Of a DNA stretch of 64,000 nt, positions 21,821-37,915 are shown one piece after another (the first letter of the stretch is position 1; every line of letters begins with the position of its first letter). The stretch covers positions 1 to 64,000 of the forward strand of contig JASMBU010000009.1 in NCBI GenBank assembly GCA_030753675.1. The letters are read 5' to 3'. The position numbers and the translations under genes were made by a program. Under the pieces are notes generated by a model. It had not been told where the DNA came from. It worked only from the letters and a program-made list of their open reading frames with translations, and searched no databases. Origin of the DNA: Methylococcales bacterium. GTDB lineage: Bacteria > Pseudomonadota > Gammaproteobacteria > Methylococcales > Methylomonadaceae.

Positions 21821-22081
21821 ATGTTTGAGGAACAGAAGGCCTTTAATGCTGTATTAATGCATTACAATAATCTATCCAGAATTGCCCAATACCAATGCCC
21901 CCGAGTCATTCTTAAGCATACAGATGAAAAACCGTATGTTGTTAAGAATAGTGACTCGGATAAACAAGCCTATATGACTTTAACTTACAGAGGTGATAAT
22001 GAATTTTCAGAATCTATTTGTACTGTTGCTAGATTAGGAAAGGTTGCTAAATTGCTTGTTGATGGTAGAAAAATAATATGA
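21821..22081 (+). CDS. Hypothetical 86-residue protein
   Basis: A short soluble protein without a recognised family. It is rich in beta-type residues, with two short charged segments (DEKPYVVKNSDSDKQAY, YRGDNEFSES) and no signal peptide or membrane helix. Its 3' end overlaps the tail of the ppk2 pseudogene on the other strand. It may be a remnant rather than a working gene; there is no strong ribosome site upstream. Confidence 0.35.
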   Translation: MFEEQKAFNAVLMHYNNLSRIAQYQCPRVILKHTDEKPYVVKNSDSDKQAYMTLTYRGDNEFSESICTVARLGKVAKLLVDGRKII

Positions 22082-22822
22082 TTGATCGAGTTTTATAAGA
22101 TTAGCTGATCTACAAGGACTCAATTGTATTGGTTTTTTATTAACCACAAAATCATTTAAGGTATAGCTTGGATGTTTACCCTTATAGCTCATGCTACTCA
22201 AAAGATAACGCATAGATTCTAGCCGAGCCTTCTTTTTATCATTACCATTAAAGACGATCCAGGGAGACCGTTTACAACTGTTTTGTTTAAGCATGGTTTC
22301 CTGATAATGGCAGTATTGTCCCCATAAGGTTTGTGCTTGGCATCTACTCTTCCATTGTTTTGCCGGGGACACGCAACGGGCTTGAATGCGCCTAGTCTGC
22401 ACTTCCTGACTAATATCAAGCCAGAACGTTACAATCATAATCCCGGAATCAATTAGCATTCGCTCAACATAATTCACCTGACGCATAAATAAAGCATACT
22501 GTTGGTCTGTACAATAACCATTAACTTACTCAACAACTGCGCGGTTGTACCACGAGCGGTCAAATAAAACAATCTCGCCTACAGTTGGAAACTGACTAAG
22601 GTTACGTTGTAAGTACCACTCTCCACATCACTGGGTTTTAGAAGCGCAACAACGCGACAAAAGGTGTTGACTAAAACGTGGAATGACGCCGCCTTTGCCT
22701 GCAGCATCTCAACCTTCAAATACGACCGCCAGTCGCTTGCCATTATTTACAATTGAGTTTGGTAATTTAATAAGTTCGACTTGTAATTCATTCAATAACC
22801 GTAAATACAATTGCTTAGTCAT
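22034..22822 (-). pseudogene. ppk2: ppk2 pseudogene (polyphosphate kinase 2), three in-frame stops
   Basis: The whole stretch reads as a PPK2 in one frame. It starts MTKQLYLRLLNEL, continues RLAVVFEG-stop-DAAGKGGVIPRF (the P-loop-like Walker A region), then [16 protein letters not shown]-stop (Walker B and lid region) and YVERMLIDSGIMIVTFWLDIS. Stops interrupt the frame at 22709-22711 (TGA), 22628-22630 (TGA) and 22526-22528 (TAA). PPK2 enzymes use polyphosphate to phosphorylate nucleotides. No frameshift is needed to read it, so decay is by point mutation. The last part after YLLSSMSYKGKH diverges from the family. Confidence 0.88.
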
Positions 22823-23236: not shown

Positions 23237-24220
23237 ATGACTAAACAGGTGCGAAAAAAACGTTTTTTGCTATTGTACTTTGGGATGGTGTTTGGCTTGC
23301 TCAACTGTCTTCAATCTTCCCCTGTCTGGGCTATGGAGAGCGGAGAAACGCATGTAATCACCTTGAAGGCATCGAATCTTACTTCCGGTCAGTTGGCTTA
23401 TCAGATGGCGTCTCACAAGATTAAGTCAAAAAACGGGAGAATTCGTAATGTAACCGATCGTTATCCACAAGGCCCAACAGTACCTGGCCCAACCATTATC
23501 ATGACAGAAGGCGATGTTGCAGAAATCACGCTAGAACATGACATCGAAGGGTCTTCTCTGCCAGTTAGCCTCCATGTGCATGGTGTTCATTACAAGATAA
23601 AAGACGATGGAACCGTAAAAGCGATGAATGGAATAGTTGATTCAGCCGCTTTTCCGGGCAAGCCTTATACCTATCGCTGGGAAGCAGCGTCAGGCACTGC
23701 GGGAACTTGGCCTTACCACGACCATACGTTCGGGAACCCCATGCTAGGTGCTGAGGATAAAGGGTTGTACGGTGCGGTCATTGTCAACCCAAGCAGTATG
23801 GAAGTTCCTGCATTGATTGATGGTGAAATCGTAGACGTGGACCTTGACGATGTTAAGCGAGAGTTCGTACTTTGGATGCACGAGACAACATTTTGGGGGA
23901 CAGAGATCAATCATATCCTAGATGGTCAGCAAATCCCCCTTTGGAGCAACCCAACAATTGGCGCACGCCTTGGTGAACTGGTTCGTTTTCATGTTATTGG
24001 TATAGGAACCGCTTTTCACTCTTTCCATCTGCACGGTCATCGATGGCTTGAACATGGAACCACTAGCGTCGTTGATACCGTCAATATAGGTCCTATATCC
24101 CGTCAGACCTTCGTGGTTGAAGCGGGTGAGGGTGTCGGACCCGGCGCATGGCACTATCACTGCCATGTTCTCCAGCATATGCAAAGCGGAATGATGGGGA
24201 AATTTCGAGTTCTGGAGTAG
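23237..24220 (+). CDS. Two-domain multicopper oxidase (laccase-like), exported
   Basis: A 327-residue copper oxidase with a signal peptide (about 1-32, ending in PVWA). Two cupredoxin domains are visible. Domain 1 gives HVH (113-115) and HDH (161-163). Domain 2 gives H-S-F-H-x-H (261-266) and the H-C-H...H...M block (308-319). Domain 1 has no type 1 cysteine, so the single T1 copper is in domain 2, and the T2/T3 trinuclear site would form between trimer subunits as in two-domain laccases. It could oxidise metal ions or phenols with O2, or reduce nitrite; copper nitrite reductase is a less likely alternative because the HCH set is laccase-like. A cupredoxin-propeller lipoprotein follows after 27 bases. 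Confidence 0.9.
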   Translation: MTKQVRKKRFLLLYFGMVFGLLNCLQSSPVWAMESGETHVITLKASNLTSGQLAYQMASHKIKSKNGRIRNVTDRYPQGPTVPGPTIIMTEGDVAEITLEHDIEGSSLPVSLHVHGVHYKIKDDGTVKAMNGIVDSAAFPGKPYTYRWEAASGTAGTWPYHDHTFGNPMLGAEDKGLYGAVIVNPSSMEVPALIDGEIVDVDLDDVKREFVLWMHETTFWGTEINHILDGQQIPLWSNPTIGARLGELVRFHVIGIGTAFHSFHLHGHRWLEHGTTSVVDTVNIGPISRQTFVVEAGEGVGPGAWHYHCHVLQHMQSGMMGKFRVLE

Positions 24221-24247
24221 TTTTTTTAACAAATGAGGTTAATTGAC

Positions 24248-26080
24248 ATGCAAATAAAAATAAAATCAAGAAGTATTATATTGTGCTTGGCAGTATTTTT
24301 GGTTGGTTGCCAACAAGGAGGTCCGAAACCTAAAGCCGAGGATATCATCCTAAGCAAACCGGGCCTTATGCCATCAGCAATTCTAGAAATAACGGACGAG
24401 CCGGGACATTGGTTTAAAGATCCGGTTGATGGCGATTCCCTAGTAGTGATTAAACCGGGCCAAGCCGTCATGTTGAAGATGACGGCAGAAACACGAACAG
24501 AACATACCATTACAAGCCTATTGTGGCCGTCGAATGCTTCTGGTTTTCCAATTGATCAGGAAAAACCATCAAGTGTCAGCGTAACCACCGCTTTTGATCA
24601 ACCGGGCTTATATGTGTTTACTTGTAAGGTGCATCCGTATGTGTTTGGTGCAGTCGTAGTTGATGATCCGAAGACGGAAGGGTTGGACATCGGTTCTGAA
24701 ATGCAATTAGTCACTGGTGCCAAAGTGCCAACAACGAGTGACATTGCAAAGAAACTGCTTCGAACCTATTTTATAGCAACTACACCCGCATTATGGCGTG
24801 ATTATTCCAAACCCACCTGGGATGTGGCATTGCCGGATATTCCACTAAACCTTGCTGGGAACACGATTAGTTTATCAGCACTTAGTTTTTCTGCACCCAA
24901 TAAAGCGTTCAATCCTGCAATCCCAGGAATAGGCGAAGTATGGGTGGATACTCAATTTGAGAAAATCGACGGAAAGACTAAGGCTGGTTCGGCAACTCAA
25001 GTGGATGCAACCACCTGGTCAATCAAGAAAAAGGTCAAAGGCGTGGATATCAACATGAACCACCCTCATAATATGTGGACGGATAGTCAATATAAAAATA
25101 TCTATCAGACCGAATGGTTTGACAAAAGGCTAACAACTTTCGACCGGGATACGGGTAAAGTCTTGAGCACGGTCGATGTTGGTGAATCGCCTTCTCATGT
25201 TCTCACACGACCCACCGATGATTCACTATACGTAGCGATCAATGCTGGAGAATCGGTTGTTAAACTTTCTGCTGGGGAAAGACCTTCTGTATTGAGCGCG
25301 ATCAATACAGGGCCGCATACATCGCCGCACGGTCACTACATTACCGAAAATGGGAAGCTGATGGTAACGCCGAATGCGTTGGCGTCCAGTGTTTCAGTAG
25401 TGGATCTGAACAGCGAGGAAGTAGTGGAAATACCTACAGGCGCAGTGATTCCCATTGCCGTCTGGGGGAATCCAGAAGGAACCCGCGCTTATGTTGCCAA
25501 TCTATTAGGGACACCACCTGCTTTGTTAAGTTCAATGAGCGTGATCGACTTGGAAACGAAAACCAAAATCACCGATATAAACTTAGCAGAAGATTATAAC
25601 CCGATTACAGGTAAAGTAACTGGGGAGGCCTATGGACTGTTGCCTATACAAACCCCGGTTAGCCCGGATGGAAAATATGTTGTTACAGCCAATACATTAA
25701 GCGCCAGTATCACGATTGTTGATACGGCTTCGAATAAAGTCATTAAGAGTCTTCCCTGCGAACCAGGTTGCCACGGTGCTCATTTTGGATTGAAGAAAGG
25801 CGGTGGTTACTACGCGTATGTTGCCAGCAAGTTTGCCAACGACCTTATTATCATCGATATGGACAAGCTTGAGATTGCTGGCAGGGTGGTTCTTGCCGAC
25901 CGCAATGATTCGACGATATCGGCAAACAATGGCATGGGAGGGCAAGGGGTTTTACCGTTACCGTTAGCTGAAAAAAGTCGGCTTCAGCGTACTAAAGGAC
26001 TGTTAGGTAGTGGTAAGTTGACCCCCGAAGTCGAAAGATGGTTGAAGCAAGCCACAAAGAGTCAAATTGGAGGAATCTGA
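24248..26080 (+). CDS. Cupredoxin plus beta-propeller lipoprotein
   Basis: A 610-residue lipoprotein: lipobox FLVGC with Cys21, a cupredoxin domain at about 40-140 and a YVTN-type beta-propeller from about 230 on (repeated DRDTGKVLSTVDVGESPSHV-like blades, SMSVIDLETKTKI, SITIVDTASNKVIKSL). The cupredoxin offers His86, Cys126 and His129 (FTCKVHPYVFG), but no methionine sits in the usual axial position. A start at 24248 is preferred to the ATG at 24233 because GAGG lies 9 bases before it. It is probably co-transcribed with the multicopper oxidase and may be its electron donor or acceptor in the periplasm. Confidence 0.82.
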   Translation: MQIKIKSRSIILCLAVFLVGCQQGGPKPKAEDIILSKPGLMPSAILEITDEPGHWFKDPVDGDSLVVIKPGQAVMLKMTAETRTEHTITSLLWPSNASGFPIDQEKPSSVSVTTAFDQPGLYVFTCKVHPYVFGAVVVDDPKTEGLDIGSEMQLVTGAKVPTTSDIAKKLLRTYFIATTPALWRDYSKPTWDVALPDIPLNLAGNTISLSALSFSAPNKAFNPAIPGIGEVWVDTQFEKIDGKTKAGSATQVDATTWSIKKKVKGVDINMNHPHNMWTDSQYKNIYQTEWFDKRLTTFDRDTGKVLSTVDVGESPSHVLTRPTDDSLYVAINAGESVVKLSAGERPSVLSAINTGPHTSPHGHYITENGKLMVTPNALASSVSVVDLNSEEVVEIPTGAVIPIAVWGNPEGTRAYVANLLGTPPALLSSMSVIDLETKTKITDINLAEDYNPITGKVTGEAYGLLPIQTPVSPDGKYVVTANTLSASITIVDTASNKVIKSLPCEPGCHGAHFGLKKGGGYYAYVASKFANDLIIIDMDKLEIAGRVVLADRNDSTISANNGMGGQGVLPLPLAEKSRLQRTKGLLGSGKLTPEVERWLKQATKSQIGGI

Positions 26081-26447: not shown

Positions 26448-27089
26448 TCAGTCTTTTTTCATGGTGTTAATTTTAAAACGACAGGCACAACCTCCTTTTG
26501 CAAGACATTCTGTTAGTTTGACTTCTTGTTCCAGAAAGGTAGACATCAAACCAATATCAAATTCACAAATTTCAGGGTGTGATTGTGCTAACTCGTGGTA
26601 AACACAATTATGGGCTTCGATCATAGTATGCGAATTATTTTCGGATTTATTAATTAGGTTAGCCTGATAGCCTAGATCAGTCATAATGTTAATTAATTTT
26701 TTAAGTCGATCCGTTATATTAGATTCGTTGAGGGGGTCTTTTAACTGTTGAGCCATCTCCATACCCATGTTTTTAAGGTGATTTCTGAAGGCATTTGTAC
26801 CGAGTATTTTCTTGAAATCCTTTAAAAGGAGTTCAGAAAACCAAGCATATTGTTTTGGGAAGCATTTGATGCCTCTTTCAGTTAAAGCAAAATGACGTGC
26901 GGGTCGGCCACGGGTCTTTTGAGATTCGCTTTCAGTGATATAACCTTTTTTTTCTAAAGTAGCAAAGTGTTGCAGTACAGCAGTTCGTGAAATACCCAAT
27001 TCTTCAGAAATTTTGTTAATACTATGACTTTTTCTGTGTTTAAGCAGTAGTTCAAGAATTTGGTTTTGTCTGGGCGTTATGGGAGGCAT
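26448..27089 (-). CDS. Winged-helix regulator with cysteine cluster (SufR/COG2345-like)
   Basis: A 213-residue DNA-binding protein. An N-terminal winged helix (about 1-75; ISEELGISRTAVLQHFATLE, then the wing TRGRPARHFALT) is followed by a ligand domain with Cys162-x12-Cys175, Cys195, Cys201 and Cys203. The Cys162-x12-Cys175 spacing matches the iron-sulfur site of SufR repressors. It is divergent from truncated hemoglobin across 202 bases and so probably controls that operon. Iron-sulfur regulators of this kind respond to O2, NO or iron; which one applies here is inference. Confidence 0.8.
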   Translation of the reverse strand: MPPITPRQNQILELLLKHRKSHSINKISEELGISRTAVLQHFATLEKKGYITESESQKTRGRPARHFALTERGIKCFPKQYAWFSELLLKDFKKILGTNAFRNHLKNMGMEMAQQLKDPLNESNITDRLKKLINIMTDLGYQANLINKSENNSHTMIEAHNCVYHELAQSHPEICEFDIGLMSTFLEQEVKLTECLAKGGCACRFKINTMKKD

Positions 27090-27291: not shown

Positions 27292-27654
27292 ATGAGTCTT
27301 TATGAACGTTTAGGTGGAGAAGGAGCAGTAGATGCAGCTGTTGATATTTTTTATCGTAAAGTGGTCGCGGATGATAGCATTAACCGTTTTTTTGAATCGA
27401 CGGATATGGCTCAACAATCCGTAAAACTTAAAGCATTTCTAACCATGGCATTTGGTGGCCCTAATAATTATACAGGTAAAGATTTACGTGAAGGGCACGC
27501 CCATTTAGTTGAAGATGGTTTAAATGATAGCCATTTCGATGCAGTTGCAGGGCATCTTGCTGCGACATTAGGGGAGCTAAATGTACCTGATGAATTAATC
27601 GATGAAGTGATGGCTATTGCTGGCAGCACACGAGGGGATGTGTTGGGAAAATAG
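27292..27654 (+). CDS. Truncated hemoglobin, group I (TrHbN/GlbN)
   Basis: A 120-residue 2-over-2 globin. It begins MSLYERLGGEGAVDAAVD and contains the family's FFESTDM and FGGPNNYTGKDLREGHAHL blocks. His69 is the likely proximal haem ligand. Group I globins convert NO to nitrate with O2 or carry O2. A good GAGAGG ribosome site precedes the ATG. It is the first gene of a putative operon with a reductase and an HPP protein, divergent from an iron-sulfur-type regulator. Confidence 0.93.
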   Translation: MSLYERLGGEGAVDAAVDIFYRKVVADDSINRFFESTDMAQQSVKLKAFLTMAFGGPNNYTGKDLREGHAHLVEDGLNDSHFDAVAGHLAATLGELNVPDELIDEVMAIAGSTRGDVLGK

Positions 27655-27726: not shown

Positions 27727-27735
27727 GTTTTGAAA

Positions 27736-28695
27736 ATGTCCATTTTAAAGTACCGTGAGCGTGAATACAGTTGCCATAGTGGTGAAACTATTTTGGATGC
27801 AATGTTGCGCCAGAAAGTTGATCTTAGTTATGGCTGTAAGCAAGGTATTTGTCAGGCTTGTATGTTACGTAGCAATATCACACCACCTGATTACACGCAG
27901 AACAATTTAACAACTGATCAACGTTCTAAAAATTGCTTTTTAGCTTGTCAGTGGCAACCTGAAGAAGATGTCTGCATCGATCCAGTTGAATCACAAAGTT
28001 TTGTTAATGCTCGGGTTATTTGCAAATCTTTATTAAGTCAGGATGTTTTGAGATTAACATTAGAATTTCAAGAGCCCTTTGAATTTCACGCTGGGCAATT
28101 TGTGAATTTAAAGAAATCCGAGCAGGTAATTCGAAGTTATTCTATTGCCAGTACCCCTAATCACTCGAACACAGTTGAGTTTCATATTCAGTTATTTAAC
28201 AATGGTCAGTTTAGCCAATGGGCTTTTAATGAATTAGTTTTGGGCGATGTTCTTCCAGTGTCAGAACCCAAAGGTAACTGTGTTTATAGTATTAAAGGTA
28301 CTGATAAAAACCTATTGTTGATTGGCACTGGTACCGGTTTAGCGCCTTTGTTTGGTATTGTAATTGATGCACTTGAGCACGGACATTCAGGACATATTCA
28401 TTTGTTTCATGGTAGCTACAATTCTGATGGTTTGTATTTAAATGCTCAGTTAACTGAGTTATCTGAGAAATACGGAAATTTCTCTTATACTGGTTGTGTC
28501 ACTAGAGAGAAGTCGGACGTTTTTTTTAGAGGCCGAGCAAACGACAAGGCTTTTTTACAATACCCTGACCTCAAGGGCTGGCGTACTTATCTCTGTGGTA
28601 ACCCTGAAATGGTCAAAGTTTCGCAAAAACAGGCTTTCTTAAACGGAGCTTTGTGCAGTGATATTTTTTCCGACGCTTTTGTTTTAAATCAGTAA
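27736..28695 (+). CDS. Ferredoxin-FAD-NAD(P)H oxidoreductase
   Basis: A 319-residue electron-transfer flavoprotein. An N-terminal plant-type [2Fe-2S] domain has C-x4-C-x2-C (GCKQGICQAC) and a fourth Cys in NCFLACQ. The FAD-binding motif RSYSIASTP comes next. The NAD(P)H domain has GTGTGLAPLFG and the C-terminal YLCGNPEMV. This is the architecture of reductases of bacterial oxygenases such as BenC or MmoC. A TTG at 27730 would add two residues. No oxygenase neighbours it; its place after truncated hemoglobin suggests that it re-reduces the globin. Confidence 0.9.
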   Translation: MSILKYREREYSCHSGETILDAMLRQKVDLSYGCKQGICQACMLRSNITPPDYTQNNLTTDQRSKNCFLACQWQPEEDVCIDPVESQSFVNARVICKSLLSQDVLRLTLEFQEPFEFHAGQFVNLKKSEQVIRSYSIASTPNHSNTVEFHIQLFNNGQFSQWAFNELVLGDVLPVSEPKGNCVYSIKGTDKNLLLIGTGTGLAPLFGIVIDALEHGHSGHIHLFHGSYNSDGLYLNAQLTELSEKYGNFSYTGCVTREKSDVFFRGRANDKAFLQYPDLKGWRTYLCGNPEMVKVSQKQAFLNGALCSDIFSDAFVLNQ

Positions 28696-37162: not shown

Positions 37163-37915
37163 ATGAAAATTAAAATCATAAGCAATGAGAATGACGTCAC
37201 TTATACCCAGAGATCTGTTGTAATCGAAACTGATGATTACAACAATTTAAAAAACCTTTCGTTTGATGAGATTAGTCAATTAATTGAAGATGGAGAAGTG
37301 GAATTAAACAATGAAAGATTAGAGGTCTTTATATTGGATAACGGTGAGGTTTTTAATGAGGATGGATATTCGAATACAGAGTTATTAATTGAAGATGAAG
37401 AAGAAAGACTAGTCACTTCTTGGTATGAAAATGGACAGAAAGAGGAGGAAGGATACTATAAGAATGGAAAGAAAGAAGCTCTTATGACTTCTTGGTTTGC
37501 CAATGGACAGAAACGGAGTGAAATTAACTACAAGAATGGAAAGAAAGAAGGACTTGAGATTCACTGGTATAAAAATGGACAGAAAATGATCGAAAGAAAC
37601 TGGAAGAATGGGGACATGGAAGGAATTTGGTATCTTTGGTATGAAAACGGTCAGAAAGATTGGGAAGAAAACTACAAGGATGGAAATAGGGATGGACATT
37701 TTACTGAGTGGTATAAAAACGGACAGAAAGAGGAGGAGGGATACTATAAGAATGGAAAGAAAGAAGGACTTGAGGCTCACTGGTATGAAAATGGACAGAA
37801 ACAGAGTGAGATAAACTATAAGAACGGAGAGATAGAAGGACTTCACATCTCTTGGTATGAAAACGGACAGAAAATGTCCGAACAAAAATGGAAGAATGGA
37901 AAGTTAATTGATTAA
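37163..37915 (+). CDS. MORN_2 repeat protein
   Basis: A 250-residue protein. The first 85 residues form an acidic domain I do not recognise. Then seven repeats of 24 residues follow, each W-Y-x-N-G-Q-K-(x)5-Y-K-N-G-x3-G (MORN_2 type, seen in YwqK-like antitoxin-annotated proteins). Units 1-3 closely resemble units 5-7, so the array grew by block duplication. An in-frame, start-less MORN-like remnant (NGLKDCYGTIWYENG) lies just upstream at 37091-37135. No toxin partner is adjacent. It sits between two IS relics. Confidence 0.8.
   Translation: MKIKIISNENDVTYTQRSVVIETDDYNNLKNLSFDEISQLIEDGEVELNNERLEVFILDNGEVFNEDGYSNTELLIEDEEERLVTSWYENGQKEEEGYYKNGKKEALMTSWFANGQKRSEINYKNGKKEGLEIHWYKNGQKMIERNWKNGDMEGIWYLWYENGQKDWEENYKDGNRDGHFTEWYKNGQKEEEGYYKNGKKEGLEAHWYENGQKQSEINYKNGEIEGLHISWYENGQKMSEQKWKNGKLID
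37421..37909 (+). repeat. 72-base tandem repeat coding MORN_2 units
   Basis: Six full units of 72 bases plus a shorter seventh. Units 1 and 5 differ by very few bases over the shared GAGGAGG-containing stretch. Together with units 2/6 and 3/7 this shows a higher-order period of four units (288 bases). Confidence 0.85.

Follow-up and report, generated by a model that had tools for sequence, protein, structure and literature searches.

A multicopper oxidase paired with a cupredoxin-propeller lipoprotein in methanotrophs and nitrifiers, a candidate reactive nitrogen oxidase complex

Gene content and copper ligands of the pair

The window analyzed here, a 64,000-nucleotide stretch of a Methylococcales contig, contains two adjacent forward-strand genes for predicted copper proteins. 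The first (P0001; positions 23237 to 24220) encodes a secreted, SLAC-like two-domain multicopper oxidase (2dMCO) of 327 amino acids with a Sec signal at approximately residues 1 to 32, and a profile search recovered the Pfam domains Cu-oxidase_3 and Cu-oxidase_2. All eight histidines of the trinuclear copper cluster (TNC) are present (H113, H115, H161, H163, H264, H266, H308, and H310), including the domain 1 motifs HVH (113 to 115) and HDH (161 to 163). The T1 copper ligands H261, C309, H314, and M319 all lie in domain 2, with C309 inside the HCH motif (H308-C309-H310), and domain 1 has no cysteine ligand. This ligand mapping agrees with the initial annotation of the protein as a type B-like oxidase with T1 copper in domain 2 only and HCH at 308 to 310; with its single T1 site confined to domain 2, the enzyme falls into type B of the commonly used scheme (PMC13151041). 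Its predicted fold aligns with the Streptomyces small laccase 8aip (Z score 25.8, rmsd 2.1, 233 aligned residues, 40% identity), and it shares with the type B 2dMCOs (SLAC, Ssl1, and the small laccases) two cupredoxin domains, T1 copper in domain 2 only, and eight TNC histidines. Assignments to CopA (73.5 bits versus a curated cutoff of 479) and CueO (25 bits versus 525) were both rejected.

Other two-domain copper oxidases are found in nitrifiers. BCO of Nitrosomonas is a type C 2dMCO, with T1 in domain 1. Like the window oxidase, BCO and the NVIE MCOs of Nitrososphaera are two-domain copper oxidases of organisms in these guilds, their roles are debated, and to our knowledge no propeller partner has been described for these type C enzymes. 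The NVIE MCOs also have T1 in domain 1 and are type C (PMC11561398).

The second gene (P0002; positions 24233 to 26080) encodes a protein of 615 amino acids from the ATG at 24233, with the lipobox LVGC, and the product is predicted from its sequence to be an outer-membrane lipoprotein. A GAGG ribosome-binding site is visible in the forward-strand sequence at 24237 to 24240, 7 bases before an internal ATG at 24248, and this ATG is probably the true start. Counted from it, the 27-base gap between the genes and the ligands first reported as His86, Cys126, and His129 hold; they correspond to H91, C131, and H134 from the ATG at 24233, the numbering used below. The protein consists of an N-terminal cupredoxin of the blue-copper type (H91, C131, and H134) and a C-terminal seven-bladed YVTN propeller supported by a Pfam YNCE match and by a fold search, so that Pfam, fold search, and ligand set are all in accord with the earlier claim that one lipoprotein joins a cupredoxin to a beta-propeller.

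The His-Cys-His ligands of the cupredoxin are kept in 62/62 aligned family sequences. The axial position is valine (V137) in the window protein and in a sister genome (G004), and methionine in 61/62 aligned family members. The absence of an axial methionine from the window protein, to which the initial annotation had attached a raised copper potential, is thus real, but it is limited to this genus and is not a family trait; by the alignment, the loss is a genus-level substitution rather than something inherent to the system. Blue copper sites without methionine exist, so V137 does not exclude copper binding, and blue-copper chemistry predicts a raised potential when the axial methionine is absent.

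Pairing, fusion, and distribution

The gene directly upstream of the lipoprotein is a 2dMCO with all of its ligands in 17/17 surveyed loci (16 from Methylococcales and one from another gammaproteobacterium, G062). The same order occurs on the Methylocystis rosea plasmid pGW6_2, where the oxidase has 71% and the lipoprotein 67% identity to the window proteins and where the latter is annotated as a "hypothetical protein." In Nitrosomonadaceae and many ammonia-oxidizing archaea (AOA), members of the lipoprotein family occur as fusions with a 2dMCO. Seventeen pairs, from Nitrosomonadaceae and from AOA of the soil type, have an additional, separate 2dMCO gene ahead of the fusion gene; there the separate protein has kept the domain 1 histidines and lost the domain 2 set, including HCH, whereas the fused protein has kept the domain 2 ligand set and lost the domain 1 histidines. 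In type B 2dMCOs, each TNC lies between two subunits, one contributing domain 1 and its neighbor domain 2 (PMC13151041), which, taken with this complementary loss, indicates that the O2-reducing center of these nitrifiers can form only between both proteins. Whatever the function of the complex, this distribution of TNC ligands over two genes, seen in Nitrosomonas and AOA, clearly illustrates how an active site can become hetero-oligomeric. Unlike SLAC and Ssl1, then, the window oxidase family consistently adjoins or is fused with a cupredoxin-propeller protein, and in nitrifiers the ligands of the two oxidase domains are divided between two proteins.

Further architectures were recovered: in seven other AOA loci a single chain of approximately 1,050 to 1,120 residues holds everything, and in Nitrospira a three-domain MCO precedes the lipoprotein homolog in place of the 2dMCO. 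Three solutions to the combination of an MCO with a cupredoxin-propeller protein, together with the fusion and the TNC split between chains in nitrifiers, make it highly probable on comparative grounds that oxidase and lipoprotein form a physical complex. Conserved adjacency, fusion, and the complementary ligand losses provide strong support for the dedicated pairing proposed at the outset, and it is this part of the original interpretation that stands, while axial methionine loss as a system feature does not. The search for fused or adjacent homologs that had been suggested as a check recovered both, showing that the two proteins do occur together, and the role envisaged for the lipoprotein as a tethered donor or receptor is plausible.

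Lipoprotein paralogs also stand alone in AOB, Nitrospira, and AOA, with no neighboring MCO, and the propeller protein therefore probably also serves without an adjacent oxidase. These standalone cupredoxin-propeller proteins of approximately 600 to 650 amino acids form a clade (L175 to L179, L184 to L186, L147 to L149, and L194), and the surrounding gene order is conserved in two of the Nitrospira loci (L186 and L194).

Lipoprotein homologs are thus present, in several architectures, in Methylococcales, Nitrosomonas, Nitrospira (including comammox), and AOA. The lipoprotein was detected in 86/125 Nitrosomonadaceae genomes, where a single genome can have as many as five matches, in 46/79 genomes of one Nitrospira genus whose members include comammox organisms, and in 34/250 genomes of one AOA order, 26 with the full family and 8 with a more distant relative of 710 to 743 amino acids. 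The 25 carriers among 251 Methylococcales genomes (10 of 48 genera) bear out the earlier view of the pair as accessory DNA. An even sample of Gammaproteobacteria (in the GTDB sense) yielded 3 carriers in 274 genomes; two of these are Methylococcales and the third is G062. The last genome has no PF02461 and has the gene order ECF sigma factor, small protein, MCO, lipoprotein, and folE in common with pGW6_2, for which reason a transfer is likely. Our phylogenetic tree places the methanotroph sequences next to a nitrifier clade containing both bacterial and archaeal members, and the GC content of the pair gives no sign of a foreign origin. The lipoprotein is weakly associated with amoA in the one Nitrospira genus (33/46 carriers versus 16/33 noncarriers, P = 0.06, in MAGs that have gaps). 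We rejected the module as the general archaeal hydroxylamine enzyme, since only about one-tenth of AOA carry it. The individual domains are known; in the open-licence papers that we searched, we found no description of the oxidase-lipoprotein pair, nor of the complex, the split TNC, or the methanotroph-nitrifier distribution.

These distributions bear on the possibility that the oxidase is a general laccase whose substrates are phenols or Mn(II)/Fe(II) and that the lipoprotein does no more than anchor it to the cell surface. The nearest solved relatives are indeed Streptomyces two-domain laccases, and the type B 2dMCO of Cellvibrio is a slow laccase (PMC13151041), but a mere anchor need not retain a full blue-copper site and propeller histidines, a phenol oxidase is not expected to concentrate in CuMMO-type guilds, and the split site in nitrifiers points to a specialized complex. 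We consider a general laccase role improbable.

Genomic neighborhood and the reactive nitrogen link

The pair was originally described as lying next to an NO-type cluster, and the genes that follow it fit that description: a SufR-like HTH regulator with a C-terminal Cys cluster (26448 to 27089, reverse strand), a group 1-type truncated hemoglobin (trHb; 27292 to 27654, forward strand), a 2Fe-2S/FAD/NAD reductase that is likely the trHb partner (27730 to 28695, forward strand), and, after it, an HPP protein (from 28705). We treat the trHb as part of a linked module outside the complex. Homologs of the SufR-like regulator are found beside the pair in eight further Methylococcales genomes; one locus (L135) has a SufR-like copy beside the pair and a paralog beside the trHb/reductase module 5 kb away. 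On the Methylocystis plasmid pGW6_2, each module instead has at its head the genes for an ECF sigma factor and for a small HxxxCxxC protein (anti-sigma), and the two cassettes are paralogous (61% and 75% identity). Two unrelated regulator types, each placed on both modules, argue for a regulon shared by the copper pair and the trHb/reductase module. An operator palindrome common to the oxidase and trHb upstream regions was sought and not found, and scans for promoters and terminators returned no signal beyond chance expectation.

Additional genes at these loci point in the direction of nitric oxide. NnrS lies beside the pair in one locus (L141) and 4 kb from it on pGW6_2, and one genus has an NsrR/RirA-like regulator divergent from the pair (NsrR 149 bits, with a curated cutoff of 182; RirA 140 bits). 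Both trHb and NnrS belong to families that deal with NO. Across the 251 Methylococcales genomes, the hydroxylamine dehydrogenase HaoA (called by PF13447 at E < 1e-90) is present in 21/25 lipoprotein carriers versus 38/226 noncarriers (Fisher P = 1.6e-11), an association that is partly confounded by phylogeny; counted by genus, HaoA occurs in 8/10 carrier versus 15/38 noncarrier genera (P = 0.03). The carriers of the pair in which HaoA was not detected are the window genome, G004, G021, and G336.

Copper detoxification is the main rival to a reactive nitrogen function, and it stays so because of the copper-rich nature of the guild and the efflux genes that lie close to the pair both in G062 and on pGW6_2. 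The oxidase would here be a periplasmic cuprous oxidase, comparable in role to CueO, and the tethered lipoprotein would donate or accept Cu(I), the two protecting organisms that handle much copper for CuMMO. The G062 pair lies near CusC/FixH-type copper-efflux genes (by ORF reading), pGW6_2 has FixH-TolC-CusBA-copper ATPase genes approximately 14 kb away as well as another CusA system, and the three-domain MCO partner in Nitrospira is distantly CopA/CueO-like. However, the pair has no conserved copper gene as a neighbor in Methylococcales, P0001 falls far below the curated cutoffs of CopA and CueO, and copper homeostasis leaves both the conservation of the propeller histidines and the trHb/NnrS/HaoA link unexplained, so that we regard this explanation as unlikely.

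Several other features of these replicons were recorded. The plasmid pGW6_2 (NZ_CP034088.1; L195 to L197) carries an orphan amoC, two smbP genes, copper efflux, NnrS, the trHb/reductase module, and the copper pair, and is a mobile set of CuMMO-related accessory genes. The window genome (G000) is small (1.7 Mb) and has PF02461 (PmoA/AmoA) only as fragments (G000:C33:181489-181803 and G000:C55:89951-90040, covering model positions 133 to 237 and 1 to 30, respectively), which perhaps reflects an assembly break or a decaying gene. Between pqqC and the copper pair, a reverse-strand ORF of 150 amino acids (22034 to 22486) matches only the C-terminal half of PPK2 (positions 120 to 226 of 229) and is probably a broken PPK2 gene. 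A 250-amino-acid protein with MORN-like repeats of the type EEGYYKNGKKEG is encoded on the forward strand at 37163 to 37915, in a gene-poor stretch after 36 kb.

Propeller histidines and proposed function

The propeller of the window lipoprotein contains eight histidines, three of which vary among the 62 aligned sequences. The other five are invariant or nearly so in this set, which spans bacteria and archaea (H279, H322, and H514, 62/62; H366, 61/62; H368, 60/62), and Q473 is also among the conserved residues. All five conserved histidines sit in blade-entry loops, and since these near-invariant positions are the only conserved histidines of the propeller, a role for it as a mere scaffold appears unlikely. 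N2O reductase carries copper at the center of its propeller, as thiocyanate dehydrogenase does, and together with the conserved histidines these precedents make a second metal site in the lipoprotein propeller plausible. Thiocyanate dehydrogenase is a periplasmic seven-bladed propeller with a trinuclear copper center in its central tunnel (PMC9456337). It resembles the lipoprotein in its seven blades and differs from it in having no reported cupredoxin or MCO partner; the enzyme is absent among the fold matches listed for the propeller, an absence that carries no weight.

The comparison with N2O reductase can be taken further. Like NosZ and L-NosZ, the lipoprotein has a cupredoxin and a seven-bladed propeller in one chain, with an alignment over the full propeller, and it has an SPHG motif in common with NosZ (NosZ H326). 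It differs in that its cupredoxin is N-terminal with one cysteine (blue copper), while the CuA domain of NosZ is C-terminal with two. A CuZ site was rejected on the basis of a motif comparison with NosZ in L167 to L169, as the seven CuZ histidines are not kept as a set: the HH pair corresponds to N276 and H/N277, the H382 place to A409, and the H433 place to Q473. Position 277 looked like a conserved histidine in 22 sequences and is histidine or asparagine about equally in 62. An hhalign comparison of NosZ with the lipoprotein family gave a weak alignment. Assignment to L-NosZ (NF052460) was also rejected (55.9 bits versus a curated cutoff of 700), and canonical NosZ is present in 3/121 Methylococcales, none of them carriers of the lipoprotein.

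A different propeller chemistry has to be weighed against this background, in which the lipoprotein would use a metal site in its propeller to transform another periplasmic N-oxide (N2O or nitrite) or a small anion, in the manner of thiocyanate dehydrogenase or N2O reductase, with the MCO as electron partner. It would account for the histidines conserved in the blade-entry loops and fits both the subthreshold L-NosZ match and the fold search, in which residues 226 to 602 align with N2O reductases at Z scores of 31 to 33, although YVTN lactonase-type propellers match equally well or better. With the CuZ histidines not conserved as a set, CuA absent, and an O2-reducing partner ill suited to a reductase, we view such a chemistry as quite improbable.

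Our preferred reading is that the two proteins form an extracytoplasmic copper oxidase complex that removes NO or NH2OH and passes the electrons to O2, to which, on the genomic evidence above, we assign a probability of roughly 0.5. The lipoprotein would anchor the oxidase at the outer membrane, and electrons would pass from the cupredoxin to the T1 copper of the oxidase and then to the trinuclear cluster for the reduction of O2 to water; we consider this direction of electron flow reasonably likely. The electron source is less certain, with the chances evenly balanced that it is a reactive nitrogen intermediate (NO or NH2OH) arising from ammonia oxidation by CuMMO enzymes. Such an intermediate might be oxidized at the propeller metal site or directly at the cupredoxin, with nitrite as the end product, and the complex would then act alongside the cytoplasmic truncated-hemoglobin NO module.

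The step from NO to nitrite in ammonia oxidizers has yet to be assigned, and archaea still lack a verified hydroxylamine enzyme (PMC9040604). The module is patchy, yet it crosses bacteria and archaea within the methane- and ammonia-oxidizing guild, and in methanotrophs it co-occurs with HaoA. We raise, as a tentative proposal only, a new copper enzyme class: a laccase-cupredoxin-propeller complex of bacterial and archaeal CuMMO organisms that would use O2 to oxidize NO (or NH2OH) on the cell surface, would supply the step from NO to nitrite in many nitrifiers and ammonia-oxidizing methanotrophs, and in AOB and soil AOA would have a two-protein O2 site. If the propeller held copper that acts catalytically on NO or NH2OH, the system would be categorically new.

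A distinct AOA protein of 716 to 717 amino acids was also observed (L164, 6156 to 8303; L165, 5323 to 7473). Proteins of this type occur, without an MCO neighbor, in approximately 8 of 250 AOA; the two examples have an extra N-terminal part and a cupredoxin, keep the places of H279, H322, H366, and H514, and are followed by an NHL-repeat propeller gene.
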